Positions 1 through 8,048 of a stretch of 28,044 bases of DNA are shown here, in pieces. Each line of letters begins with the position of its first letter. Position 1 is the first letter of the stretch. The notes below the pieces were generated by a model. That model did not search any database, was not told the origin of the DNA, and saw only the letters and a list, made by a program, of their open reading frames with translations. Location of the stretch: positions 1 to 28,044 of IMG/VR virus record IMGVR_UViG_3300008120_000623, one strand, 5' to 3'. The stretch is from a virus. The translations under genes were made by a program, and so were the position numbers.

Positions 1-3000
1 CTACAGCGGTTTGGGGACGGTCTGTTCTTCTCGGATCAGTTGCGGCAGCTTGAGCTCTAGCAGCTTCTGCTTGTTGTGTAGTTGCTCCTGTGGTTGGTGT
101 TGGAGTTACTGCTGTTTGGACAGCAGCGGTAGTAGGTACGTTGCTAGGCGGAGTCTGGGCTGTTGCAGATGCAGATGCAGGTGCTCCTCCACTTTTCAAC
201 AAGGCCATTATGTCTTTTTCTTCATTTCCAAATCTGTTTACTACACCGGCTTGTACGTTAGCAGTGCTGCCGCCAAAATGTTTTTTGCCGCCGTCGGCTC
301 CTCTTTCCGCATACACAGCTTTTACCAGTTGTTCATCGGTCATGCCTGGTTTGAACACACTGTTCATAATTTTCTGTGCGCCGGCGGGGCCATGTTGCAC
401 AGCAGTACTAAACAACATTTCTTGAAGAGCGCGACTACCGCTGATTCTTGATTGCAGACTTTTATCTTTTAGACCGTTTAGAGCTTGTTTATAACCTTGT
501 CCTAACCACTCATTTTCGCTATCGCCTAATGCACCACTAGCGACTACTTCTTTCCATGCGTCAACTGCTTTTCCGCTAGTACTGCCTGTATCTTTTTCTA
601 TTCCTGCCTCACGTAATTTTTTAGCAACATCACCTTTGCCAGTTTTGTCGAGGAACTTAAGAAAATCTGTCATTGCTCCTGCTTTAGATGAAATTTGTTT
701 TTTACCGTAGCTAGTACCACCTACTTTATCCCATCCAACAGTTCCGCTGCCTCGACCACCCGATTCATATTTCTCTGCTACAGCTCCTAGACCAGTACCA
801 ATAGCCGCTGATGATGCTCCACCACCTCCAACTGCCGATGCTCCAGGTTGATTACCGGGCCCTGCGGTACTACCTTGTTGTCGTCTAACTGCGCTGTCAT
901 ACATAGCTTGTGGACTAGATAGATTCACTCCTGGAGTAGATGTGCTTGCCGCCGCGGCATCTTTTGCTGTCTGTAGTTCTTTTTCTTTGGCTGCTCTAGC
1001 AGCTTCTGAAGTCTTGAGTTCTCTCTCTCTTTCTCTAGCAAGTTTTCTACCTTCTACAGTATTGAGGTCAAGTATTTTGGTAGATTTTTCTAATTCTTGA
1101 TTTTGCTGATGTTGAATTGCAAGAGCCTCATCGCCTTCAACATTAGTTTTTCTAGACATACGATTAGCAGCACGTTGAGCATCTCTAGCTGCTTCTCTTT
1201 GTTTTAAGTCTTGTCTTTCTGCAGTGGTACTTTCACGTCGAGCTTTTGCTTCATCCTTACTGATGCCGCCAAATCTCGGCCCTAAAAATTCTAGTATAGA
1301 TGTCATCAAATCTTTGAAGCCCAACACAAATACATCGTATAGTTTGTCTCCAATGGCTTGAAATGTTGTACCTAGATCCCAACCTGCGTCATACAACGAT
1401 TTGAATATCATATAAAGCAATGTTCCAACCGCTACTATTTTTATAAATGGTAATAACAGTGGCAGGGTTGCTGCAGAAAGTCTAGCCATTGAGAATGCAG
1501 CAGCTTTCGTAGCCACAGTATTTGCTCCTGCAGCTCCAGCGCTTGCGGTCATTGCTAACGTTTGCAATGCTAATTTAACATTAGCCGCTAGTATTAATCC
1601 TTTTAATGCCAAGAAGGCAGCATAAGCTCCTCCCACTACCCATGCAATAGTTTCAAAATTATCTGCTACATATTCAAACGCCGGCATCACAACTAGTTCT
1701 ACAATGTCTACTAGCATGGCAAATGCTTCCATCATGGTGTCTAGCATACCACTGTTGGCTAGAAATTTTGTAAACTCGTTGCTGGTTGCTGCAATTTTAT
1801 TTTTGTATTCCTCCATACTTGCAGGATCAAGACCTTTTGATTTTAATTCTTCTTCTTTGGCTTTACGTTCCGCAGCGGCTTTTTGTTGCTCTGCTGTGAT
1901 TTGAGCAAGATTTTTTTCTCTAGCTGCTGCATCTGCCGCACCAACAAAAAAGCGTTTACTGGCTTCATCGCCGTACAGTGCCATATTTTCAGCAGTTCCA
2001 GATTTAACAAACGCTTGGGTTTCTCGTTGATAAGCTGCATTAAGTTTATTAGCTTGGTCAGCGCCCAATTTACCAGTGGTTCGAATCTGTTGATTAAGAC
2101 TCATCATATTCTTAGCACTGTCAGGCAAGAACGCCAGAGCTTTTTTACCAGCTTCACTGGTTGCTGTACCTGTAGCAATAATTTCTTTCATGCCTTCTTG
2201 ATGTTCAGCTGGAATCGAATCCATTAAATTTTGTAGATTCTTTTGACTTTCTACATCCATCTTGCTCATGATAAAACGGAATTGAGCATCTTTTAATCTG
2301 GCATTTCGTTCACCTTCCAATTCTTGTTTATTTTTTCCTGTCAACTTGGTCAAGGCGTCAAGGTCTTTTAGATATGACCCTGTACTGGCTATTAATTGTG
2401 AGTTACTCATGCCTTGTAGACTACCAGTCTTGGCCAACTGTCCAGCGTATGTGGCCATACCTTCATTGATTGCTTCAGTTGAATAACCCAATCGATTAAG
2501 ATCCGCAGCTAACGCGGTACCTTTGATCTGTTTGCCTAGAGCTCCAAGTCTTCTTGCGCCTGCTTCACTGTCTCCGCCCAGCAGTGCAAGGTCCTTGCCT
2601 GTCTTGGCAATGATACCACTGAACTGATCAAAAGTTAGTCCGGCTCCTGTGGCAGAATTTATCATCTCTGTCATGCTGCCGCCAAAGTTTGCGCCAACGC
2701 TGGCAGATTTTTTAAATGCGTCGTAGGTTTTTTCAGCAGCTCCTGCCACTGCGCCAAACATGCCGCTGAGCACACCTCCTACCACTGGTATCTGTGAAAA
2801 CACCTGCGCTGTTGAAGTGAGGCTGTTGCCTAGATTGGCCAGTGAGCTCAACATATTGGTCATTCCGCTAGCGGCACCGGCTGCTGCGCTTCCTAATCCA
2901 GACATGGCACCTTTGATGCCAGTTAAGGTTTGAATATATTCTTTCTGTGCTTTTATGGCCTGTTTCTGAGCATCAATATTTTTCTTTTGCTCTTTGGTTA

Positions 3001-3280
3001 ATCCTTTGGTGGCTTCTGTATTTTCTTCCGTTTCGTCGGTGTTGTCTTCTAGTGCTTCAGCATTTTTTTCTGCTTCTAGAGCAGCTTTTTTGGATGCGGC
3101 CGCTAGTTTTTTTAATTCTTTTTCAAGTTCTTGTTGTGATTTGGCACGTGCCGCTTTGTCTTTGCCAGTGTTATTGACCATGACTGTCATGGCCGCAAGA
3201 AGTTGCTTCAGCGTGGCTTCTGTAGCTGCATTGTTTAGTTGTATCGGTTGACCGCCAAGATCACCTGTGACTTCTGCCAT
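1..3280 (-). CDS. Tape-measure-like tail protein with peptidoglycan-hydrolase domain (partial)
   Basis: Open for 1093 codons from the ATG at 3280 to the left edge, with no stop in the window, so the C-terminus is missing. Residues about 30-110 are charged and coiled-coil-like (Lys/Glu/Ala-rich). A Gly/Ala-rich stretch follows, then hydrophobic segments near residues 547-572 and 606-626, as is common in tape measures. From about residue 830 a domain resembles the C-terminal cell-wall hydrolase of VgrG3-type spikes: YESGG at 838-842 (E839 a candidate catalytic Glu), then SYGKKQIS, STAVQHG and a downstream YAERG. It probably sets tail length and cuts peptidoglycan during DNA injection. The start is supported by an AGGAT-type ribosome site about 11 bases upstream. 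It is divergent from gp26. The tape-measure call rests on size, composition and context; the hydrolase call on motifs. Confidence 0.8.
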   Translation of the reverse strand, partial: MAEVTGDLGGQPIQLNNAATEATLKQLLAAMTVMVNNTGKDKAARAKSQQELEKELKKLAAASKKAALEAEKNAEALEDNTDETEENTEATKGLTKEQKKNIDAQKQAIKAQKEYIQTLTGIKGAMSGLGSAAAGAASGMTNMLSSLANLGNSLTSTAQVFSQIPVVGGVLSGMFGAVAGAAEKTYDAFKKSASVGANFGGSMTEMINSATGAGLTFDQFSGIIAKTGKDLALLGGDSEAGARRLGALGKQIKGTALAADLNRLGYSTEAINEGMATYAGQLAKTGSLQGMSNSQLIASTGSYLKDLDALTKLTGKNKQELEGERNARLKDAQFRFIMSKMDVESQKNLQNLMDSIPAEHQEGMKEIIATGTATSEAGKKALAFLPDSAKNMMSLNQQIRTTGKLGADQANKLNAAYQRETQAFVKSGTAENMALYGDEASKRFFVGAADAAAREKNLAQITAEQQKAAAERKAKEEELKSKGLDPASMEEYKNKIAATSNEFTKFLANSGMLDTMMEAFAMLVDIVELVVMPAFEYVADNFETIAWVVGGAYAAFLALKGLILAANVKLALQTLAMTASAGAAGANTVATKAAAFSMARLSAATLPLLLPFIKIVAVGTLLYMIFKSLYDAGWDLGTTFQAIGDKLYDVFVLGFKDLMTSILEFLGPRFGGISKDEAKARRESTTAERQDLKQREAARDAQRAANRMSRKTNVEGDEALAIQHQQNQELEKSTKILDLNTVEGRKLARERERELKTSEAARAAKEKELQTAKDAAAASTSTPGVNLSSPQAMYDSAVRRQQGSTAGPGNQPGASAVGGGGASSAAIGTGLGAVAEKYESGGRGSGTVGWDKVGGTSYGKKQISSKAGAMTDFLKFLDKTGKGDVAKKLREAGIEKDTGSTSGKAVDAWKEVVASGALGDSENEWLGQGYKQALNGLKDKSLQSRISGSRALQEMLFSTAVQHGPAGAQKIMNSVFKPGMTDEQLVKAVYAERGADGGKKHFGGSTANVQAGVVNRFGNEEKDIMALLKSGGAPASASATAQTPPSNVPTTAAVQTAVTPTPTTGATTQQAEAARAQAAATDPRRTDRPQTAV

Positions 3281-3337: not shown

Positions 3338-3347
3338 GGAGATAAAA

Positions 3348-4214
3348 ATGCCAGATCAAACTATTCCACAACCTGTAAAAAAAGCCAATCCGCTTGCCAA
3401 TTATTTTAGGCAGCCAAAAATGTACCTGCGACTGCCCAGTCACGGAAAATTTTATCCAGAGGGTGCATTGGATGCAAGTGAAATAGGTGAGTATCCTGTG
3501 TATGCAATGACTGCCAAAGATGAGTTGATGTTCAAAACTCCAGATGCACTAATGAACGGACAGGCCACTGTGGAAGTTATCAAAAGCTGTGTGCCTGCTA
3601 TAAAAAATCCCTGGCAGATGCCCAGCCTGGATCTAGATGCTGTGTTGATTGCCATAAGGATGGCAACTTTTGGTGAACAAATGGATATGAATGCGACCTG
3701 TCCTTCTTGCCAGCATTTCAATGATTTCACATTGAATCTAGTTCATTATCTCGATAAAATTGCTGACACAGAATACAACACTGAAATAAATGTATCACCA
3801 TTAACCATCCACATAAGACCCTATAGTTATAAAGAAATCAGTAGAACAGCTTTGAAGGGGCTAGAACAACAAAAAATATTTAATATTGTTAACAGCGAAG
3901 ACATGCCGGATGAAGAAAAAATTGAAAAATTTGGAGACAGTTTTGTTAAACTTACAGAACTTACTGTGGATGTAGTAGCGGGCTGTGTGACTAAAATTTC
4001 TACTCCAGATGGTGATGTTGATGATCTTGATTCCATAAAAGAATTTATTGGAAATGCTCCTAGTGATGTGTTTAATGCTGTAAACGATAGAATCATGGAT
4101 ATGAAAGATCAACTAACTCTAAAAGCTCAAGATGTTGAATGTACAGAATGCAAGCATCATTGGACTGTTGATGTTACTATGGATCAGACAAATTTTTTCG
4201 GCAAAGGGTCTTAA
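3348..4214 (+). CDS. 26: gp26-like baseplate hub assembly protein
   Basis: 288 aa, somewhat longer than T4 gp26 (208 aa). It resembles the T4 baseplate hub family (T4_baseplate): an N-terminal PxxKMYLRLPSHGKFYPEG-type motif (residues 23-39), then a mixed alpha/beta body. Two CxxC knuckles, C118/C121 and C265/C268, could bind one zinc between them. gp26 acts in assembly of the central hub at the start of tail formation. The ATG has a good GGAG site 6 bases upstream and an exact late promoter. The stop at 4212-4214 lies just beyond a run AAATTTTTTC (4190-4199) in slippery register, and the -1 frame continues into a gp51-like extension. The 288-aa form would therefore be the unshifted product. 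Confidence 0.85.
   Translation: MPDQTIPQPVKKANPLANYFRQPKMYLRLPSHGKFYPEGALDASEIGEYPVYAMTAKDELMFKTPDALMNGQATVEVIKSCVPAIKNPWQMPSLDLDAVLIAIRMATFGEQMDMNATCPSCQHFNDFTLNLVHYLDKIADTEYNTEINVSPLTIHIRPYSYKEISRTALKGLEQQKIFNIVNSEDMPDEEKIEKFGDSFVKLTELTVDVVAGCVTKISTPDGDVDDLDSIKEFIGNAPSDVFNAVNDRIMDMKDQLTLKAQDVECTECKHHWTVDVTMDQTNFFGKGS
4190..4199 (+). promoter_or_regulatory. Candidate -1 programmed frameshift site (double slippery heptamer)
   Basis: In the gp26 frame this reads A AAT TTT TTC. It contains two overlapping X XXY YYZ heptamers: A AAT TTT (4190-4196) and T TTT TTC (4193-4199). Slipping back one base at either gives the same product, ...NFFRQRV..., joining gp26 residue 283 to a 75-codon extension after one shared Phe codon, about 359 aa in total. 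The -1 frame has a TGA at 4169-4171, so it opens just ahead of the site. Confidence 0.6.
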
Positions 4215-4426
4215 CACTGCCTCAGGCTGAGATCCTAGAATATGTTAAGTCGTTGGAAAAAGAGGCAGTGGCAATTAAAAAAGATGCATTAAAGATCTGT
4301 TGGTATATGAGAGGAATGAGCTACGAAGAATCGATGAATCTTAGCTATGAAGAAAGAACACTTGTTGGTGAGATTATAAAAGAAAATTTGGAAACCACAA
4401 AGAAAAGCGGATTACCGTTCTTCTAA
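4199..4426 (+). CDS. 51: gp51-like hub-assembly extension, probably made by frameshift from gp26
   Basis: This reading frame encodes about 75 residues, from RQRVLTLPQAEILEYVKSLE to a C-terminus KKSGLPFF. It is helical and charged, with the conserved-looking core CWYMRGMSYEE. It resembles the short gp51-annotated proteins that follow gp26 in marine T4-like phages; T4 gp51 itself is much longer, so strict homology is uncertain. No ATG exists in this frame before 4307, which would leave only 39 codons. The only other start with a plausible ribosome site is a CTG at 4217 behind AAAGGG (4203-4208). Because the frame opens only just upstream of a slippery heptamer, the simplest reading is a gp26-gp51 fusion made by a fraction of ribosomes. 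Confidence 0.65.
   Translation, partial: RQRVLTLPQAEILEYVKSLEKEAVAIKKDALKICWYMRGMSYEESMNLSYEERTLVGEIIKENLETTKKSGLPFF
4215..4270 (+). promoter_or_regulatory. Candidate stem-loop downstream of the frameshift site
   Basis: CACTGCCTC (4215-4223) and GAGGCAGTG (4262-4270) are perfect 9-base complements closing a 38-base loop. The stem starts 15 bases after the slippery run, longer than the usual 5-9 base spacer of stimulatory structures. It could pause ribosomes at the shift site or be coincidental. Confidence 0.35.
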
Positions 4427-7613: not shown

Positions 7614-8048
7614 TTATGTTTTAGGTTTTTTGAGGATGTGTGAGCCGTGAACTCGAACCTGTATGTGACCGTTGTACCAGTCAGCGGATTCTAGAACTTT
7701 GTGTTTGAATTGTTCTCTTGCCTCGATGTAGCTGCACTCTGATTTGTTTTTGCAGTAGAATAGTATTTCTCTGGTGAAGTTTTCTTTGCCTAATGACTCA
7801 ACGTCCGCTGTTAGCGCATCGCTAGAACCATAATAGTCCTTCCAGTCGCTTTCAATTTTGCCTCTAATCTTCTTTTTCTTCTTTTTGCCGTTCTTTAACG
7901 TTACCGTCTTGTAGGTCGTTTTTGCAAACTTGGCTAGTTTTTTGCCTATATACTTGCGCCCAGAGACAACATTGGTAATAAGATATACGAACCCGATGTA
8001 ATCTTCGGAGATTTCAATAACTTCTTTCTTCTTATAGTACCATGTCAT
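7614..8048 (-). CDS. GIY-YIG family endonuclease, Seg-like
   Basis: 144 aa. The GIY-YIG signature is present as GFVYLI (19-24) and RKYIG (31-35), followed by a very basic Lys-rich insertion (52-60), SDWKDYYGSS (67-76), a conserved Glu in YIEARE (E109 the likely catalytic one) and WYN (124-126). This layout matches the free-standing Seg-like endonucleases of T4-like marine phages. Such enzymes nick or cut DNA and can spread themselves between phage genomes. The ATG overlaps the upstream stop by one base (TGATG), so it is translationally coupled to the gp46 cassette. Its 3' side borders the hairpin-rich region. A role in DNA repair rather than homing is possible. Confidence 0.85.
   Translation of the reverse strand: MTWYYKKKEVIEISEDYIGFVYLITNVVSGRKYIGKKLAKFAKTTYKTVTLKNGKKKKKKIRGKIESDWKDYYGSSDALTADVESLGKENFTREILFYCKNKSECSYIEAREQFKHKVLESADWYNGHIQVRVHGSHILKKPKT

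Follow-up and report, generated by a model that had tools for sequence, protein, structure and literature searches.

A conserved poly-T heptamer and a predicted -1 frameshift joining gp26 to a gp51-like extension in a T4-family phage locus

In phage lambda, a -1 slip on a heptamer near the end of the short chaperone gene, which lies beside the tape measure gene, yields a short and a long product, G and GT (Xu et al. 2004, as cited in PMC5009743). A 2016 review described this G-T frameshift as widely conserved "except T4" (PMC5009743). T4's gp26 and gp51 stand in a list of hub assembly chaperones (PMC3004832). Vladimirov, Gautam & Davidson (2022, Virology 566:9-15) reportedly describe a short and a long chaperone form for T4-like phages. 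The PRFect paper (PMC10274946) cites their study for T4-like phages with separate short and long chaperone genes, and PMC12846349 cites it for polyT slippery sequences in the TAC-N genes of T4-like phages; in it, gp26 and gp51 are reported to have been put forward as the tail assembly chaperones of T4. Pseudomonas phage Adele and the Vandenendeviridae, another phage family, likewise have a predicted -1 frameshift at a conserved poly-T in their TAC locus; the motif there is GTTTTT, and the case was made from how well the -1 frame is conserved (PMC12846349).

The locus described here follows the same two-product logic as T4-like gp26 (TAC-N) and gp51 (TAC-NC) and belongs to the same PF12322 family, though in T4 the two forms are separate genes, unlike the putatively frameshifted arrangement reported below. 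The 2022 study reportedly found the frameshift conserved in several T4-like groups, with T4 using genes 26 and 51. Lambda slips at GGGAAAG, a different heptamer, and has its tape measure gene downstream, whereas the tape-measure-like gene here is divergent; Pfam and PHROG scans of gp26 and its extension returned no lambda G/T family match. The short/long chaperone device of T4-like phages is published, so this locus counts as a sound new instance of it; our additions would be its breadth (jumbo and uncultivated phages), an invariant U_UUU_UUN with statistics, and clade-specific stimulators.

The window, i.e., the whole stretch of 28,044 bases that we analyzed, is the first part of a 38,518-base virus record (features in Table 1). 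The ATG of its gp26 gene is preceded by GGAG at 3338-3341, and the N-terminal part of the protein carries the PF12322 domain (Pfam E 1.3e-21; score 77.7 bits, with the gathering score at 24.5) and matches phrog_150 (PHROG E 4.9e-23). The gene ends in GAT CAG ACA AAT TTT TTC GGC AAA GGG TCT TAA, the stop codon occupying 4212-4214. Two CxxC motifs in gp26 (CPSC and CTEC), absent from relative L007, resemble a split zinc ribbon. Fairly confident AlphaFold2 models of gp26 and of the -1 extension (pLDDT 82 and 89), the latter predicted as helices, matched no solved structure in a PDB fold search, and what they resembled most in BFVD were baseplate proteins of the gp26 type. Elsewhere in the window, a small minus-strand ORF (7614-8048) looks GIY-YIG endonuclease-like by eye (GFVYLITN...YIGKK).

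Table 1. Features of the gp26 locus (window coordinates)
Feature	Position	Strand	Evidence or remark
Divergent gene, at least 1093 aa, probable tape measure, VgrG3-like C-terminal domain	2..3280	-	PF21277, E 4.5e-24; runs off contig end
gp26 / TAC-N-like ORF, 288 aa	3348..4214	+	PF12322 T4_baseplate, phrog_150
Overlapping heptamer A_AAT_TTT, unconserved	4190..4196	+	AAT as preceding codon in 12/46 clusters
Slippery heptamer T_TTT_TTC, 0-frame register AAT TTT TTC	4193..4199	+	T_TTT_TTN in 142/142 scored loci
-1 frame extension, 77 codons + stop, TAC-C-like / gp51 C-terminal-domain-like	4193..4426	+	FFRQRVLTLPQ...LPFF; dN/dS, alignment
Predicted stimulatory stem-loop, 9-bp stem 4205-4213 / 4228-4236	4205..4236	+	RNA folding; 5 nt past heptamer, overlaps gp26 stop

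Stop to stop, the -1 frame spans 4172-4426, being closed upstream by a TGA at 4169-4171; its first ATG (4307) is codon 39 of the 77 counted from the heptamer, and a CTG stands at 4217. A first-pass annotation made from the sequence alone had given these positions, together with 3348-4214 for gp26 and 4190-4199 for a pair of overlapping heptamers, and all proved correct on re-reading. It had also held that the second frame has no usable ATG, and had omitted an in-frame TTG at 4253 (codon 21 from the heptamer). Recomputing its 288-aa protein and fusion of approximately 359 aa gave 288 and 359 aa with the junction NFFRQR. As for the tape-measure gene said to lie alongside, a large divergent gene is present, and a homologue is divergent from gp26 in 53 loci; the gene at the same place in RaK2 is annotated as similar to a tape measure protein, and a VgrG3-like domain is the only one recognized. 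The tape measure identity is plausible, not proved.

A tblastn search of annotated phages returned 63 records, from which 16 representatives were examined in addition to IMG/VR loci, and the wider family was reached outward from T4 gp26 and gp51 with a cyanophage-type scan and a phiAS5 scan. The heptamer is present in 16 named jumbo or giant phages and 35 distinct IMG/VR junctions, all readable jumbo and IMG/VR junctions having T_TTT_TTC in register (T_TTT_TTT in XacN1) followed by a -1 ORF that begins with FFR or similar. Among 83 readable cyanophage- or Chrysonvirus-type loci, 82 read TTTTTTC and one TTTTTTT, while S-PM2 and Vibrio phage QD01 have TTTTTTC, Caulobacter phage Cr30 TTTTTTT, and Rhizobium phage RHph_N34 TTTTTTG. 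Cyanophage DSL-LC02 and Straboviridae phage phiAS5 both read GAT TTT TTC GCC TGA, and in these two, as in Hallingskeid and Munch, the slip site is exactly where the -1 frame opens; because the frame is closed directly 5' of that site in Hallingskeid and Munch, only there can the extension join gp26. Grouped at 60% identity, the 142 scored loci form 46 clusters; they come from jumbo phages, cyanophages, some Straboviridae, Rhizobium and Caulobacter phages, and IMG/VR contigs. Aligning the junctions of relatives, a check that the first-pass annotation had proposed, found an in-register T_TTT_TT(C/T/G) just 5' of the gp26 stop, then a -1 ORF starting "FF", in 142/142. The claim of two overlapping heptamers thus holds for T_TTT_TTC only; A_AAT_TTT occurs in a minority of relatives and is ruled out as a conserved slip site, the preceding codon varying among them.

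That preceding codon ends in T in 46/46 clusters though it encodes eight different amino acids. Given the amino acid and each locus's own codon use, and with clusters treated as independent and drawn from heptamer-bearing clades (Ackermannviridae, Cygsa01, and IME-SM1 lying outside), the probability that every preceding codon would end in T by chance is ~1e-13 (log10 P -12.8), and that every first Phe would be TTT is ~1e-10 (log10 P -9.7; Phe elsewhere is 394 TTC and 1068 TTT); at 45% identity (19 clusters) the two log10 P values are -5.7 and -4.7. We therefore conclude that selection acts on the nucleotide heptamer.

Comparison with four close relatives revealed strong purifying selection on the -1 ORF (dN/dS about 0.04-0.1; dN 0.02-0.06, dS 0.56-0.64), and both other frames across it contain stops. 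After FF, the 0-frame tail runs for 1-11 codons without conservation, while in the -1 frame conservation extends along the 70-80 residues. Pfam and PHROG scans of this phage's -1 ORF gave no significant match; phrog_18291 (function unknown) is matched only by -1 ORF homologues of some jumbo phages. In Pseudomonas phage PA5oct (L011, 2834-3061), the -1 extension is absent from the record's annotation.

A conserved -1 ORF might instead be a small gene of its own (annotated as "gp51" in cyanophages) that is translated by termination-reinitiation or from a weak start codon, and public records do hold it as a separate CDS, e.g., S-PM2 gp51, and BF, XbC2, and 121Q with TAATG overlaps. An ATG stands at codon 6 of the -1 ORF in most cyanophages; this ATG and the TAATG overlaps could permit re-initiation. 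Vibrio phage 207E48.1 and Cygsa01 have TAATG and no heptamer. An appropriately placed SD-like motif, however, precedes 0/141 of the scored first ATGs of -1 ORFs, against 58/134 gp26 starts. At the present locus, moreover, no ATG precedes the middle of the extension and the TTG is unsupported, while conservation of the -1 reading sets in at FFR, upstream of candidate starts (in the window's own group as FFRxxLL..., ahead of any ATG), and the synonymous choice NNT TTT TTC is kept, for which reinitiation would have no need. We consider a separate gene improbable.

Folding was scanned in 40-nt segments across 46 representatives, and the lowest of 25 positions, with a mean z of -1.21 (se 0.29), was the segment starting 4 nt past the heptamer, every other segment lying between -0.61 and +0.32. 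The hairpin of this phage is modest taken alone (z -0.3 to -0.7), a longer fold of its region favours a different structure, and the signal is visible only by comparison across relatives; in relative L003, one G-U of the 4205-4236 stem is replaced by an A-U pair. In a group formed by cyanophages and Straboviridae, the heptamer is preceded at a distance of ~10 nt by GGAGGG or TAGGT, both SD-like; such an upstream stimulator was sought in the window's group and is absent. In cyanophage loci L091-L170, the GGAGGG-type sequence (Leu-Glu-Gly codons) occurs in nearly all representatives, and by analogy with dnaX it is a possible internal Shine-Dalgarno stimulator.

The position of the downstream hairpin, at ribosomal spacer distance, also speaks against the long protein coming from RNA polymerase slippage on the six-T run rather than from ribosomal slippage. 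Such a T6 run is found at the site in nearly all loci, but transcriptional slippage in bacteria usually needs longer runs, and here the run stays at six and C-ended in 43/46 clusters with no lengthening, and a TTG is tolerated (RHph_N34), so that we give polymerase slippage a very slim chance. That the second frame is open by accident, or that a sequencing error cut one gene in two, has a negligible probability: homopolymer runs do attract errors, and IME-SM1 looks like such a case, but the interruption recurs at the same codon in 142 loci, many independently sequenced, and in phages of the T4 type the fused form exists as a second gene.

That second gene clarifies what the extension is. T4 gp26 and gp51 both belong to PF12322 (E 8.8e-64 and 3.9e-52) and are similar to each other at E 2e-6, gp51 being longer by about 50 residues. 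The cyanophage -1 ORF matches the gp51 continuation (phrog_150 positions 231-281, and phrog_634) and the C-terminus of T4-type gp51 (hhalign 96.7%, E 4e-10). The window-type -1 ORF aligns weakly at the same place (hhalign 33%, E 4e-4); with two of the three gp51s tried it outscores 1000/1000 shuffles, and with T4's own 970/1000. The window gp26 profile aligned poorly by hhalign with single T4 gp26 and gp51 sequences, and the Pfam and PHROG profiles resolved the relationship. Because gp51 consists of a PF12322 domain followed by a stretch with homology to the cyanophage -1 ORF, it can be read as a hard-wired long form, and by sequence comparison intact T4 gp51 is the counterpart of the whole gp26+extension fusion, not of the small -1 ORF. 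"Gp51-like", the label given to the extension at first pass, appears right by position and by the chain of homology through the cyanophage -1 ORF, with the qualification that T4 gp51 matches the whole fusion and direct similarity in the window is weak.

Taken together, comparative genomics, RNA structure, and purifying selection make a -1 programmed frameshift, with a short and a long protein in the manner of G/GT, the best and a very probable explanation of the locus, and the fusion of gp26 with its extension as first proposed gains from the heptamer conservation, the selection on the -1 ORF, and the folding minimum across relatives. We infer from these data that ribosomes do shift here, along with the short-to-long ratio and the chaperone function. 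Under this frameshift, gp26 would be the short tail assembly chaperone (TAC-N, the role of lambda gpG), with the majority of ribosomes terminating at the TAA to give the 288-aa protein. Some would pause on T_TTT_TTC, aided by the stem-loop ~5 nt downstream, whereupon the two tRNAs would re-pair one base upstream and -1 translation to 4426 would give the 359-aa fusion (TAC-NC, the gpGT role). On the lambda analogy, the tape measure protein (whose gene is probably the divergent neighbour) would carry a coat of many short copies and a few long ones, whose extension would serve to bring in subunits of the tail tube or baseplate.

Some relatives depart from the pattern. The heptamer was sought in Ackermannviridae (Det7 and 207E48.1) and in Cygsa01 and is absent: in Det7 (L175, ~2741), 207E48.1 (L177, ~2726), and Cygsa01 (L088, ~3309) it has been lost, with the gp51-like extension still in the -1 frame. 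The TAATG overlap of 207E48.1 and Cygsa01, from its sequence, suggests coupled re-initiation; Det7 has no ATG at the same place. In Stenotrophomonas phage IME-SM1 (L181, before 2813), five T are found instead of six, the extension is in the +1 frame, and gp26 is lengthened; this five-T junction is possibly a homopolymer sequencing error. At family scale, we would put at even odds a scenario in which the U_UUU_UUN frameshift is ancestral to the whole PF12322 chaperone family, including jumbo phages and many uncultivated lineages outside the T4-like groups covered by earlier work. In this scenario gene duplication took its place in T4's clade, coupled re-initiation perhaps did so in Ackermannviridae, and the stimulator switched between clades (in cyanophages the SD-like GGAGGG ~10 nt before the heptamer, in other clades the hairpin after it).

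These comparisons provide sequence support for a lambda-style short/long chaperone switch in T4-family phages beyond T4's own branch, and a correct gene model for a locus that is annotated publicly as two genes, or, in PA5oct, with half of it missed. With frameshift, duplication, and possible re-initiation in one chaperone family, comparison among its members makes the required short:long ratio directly testable.
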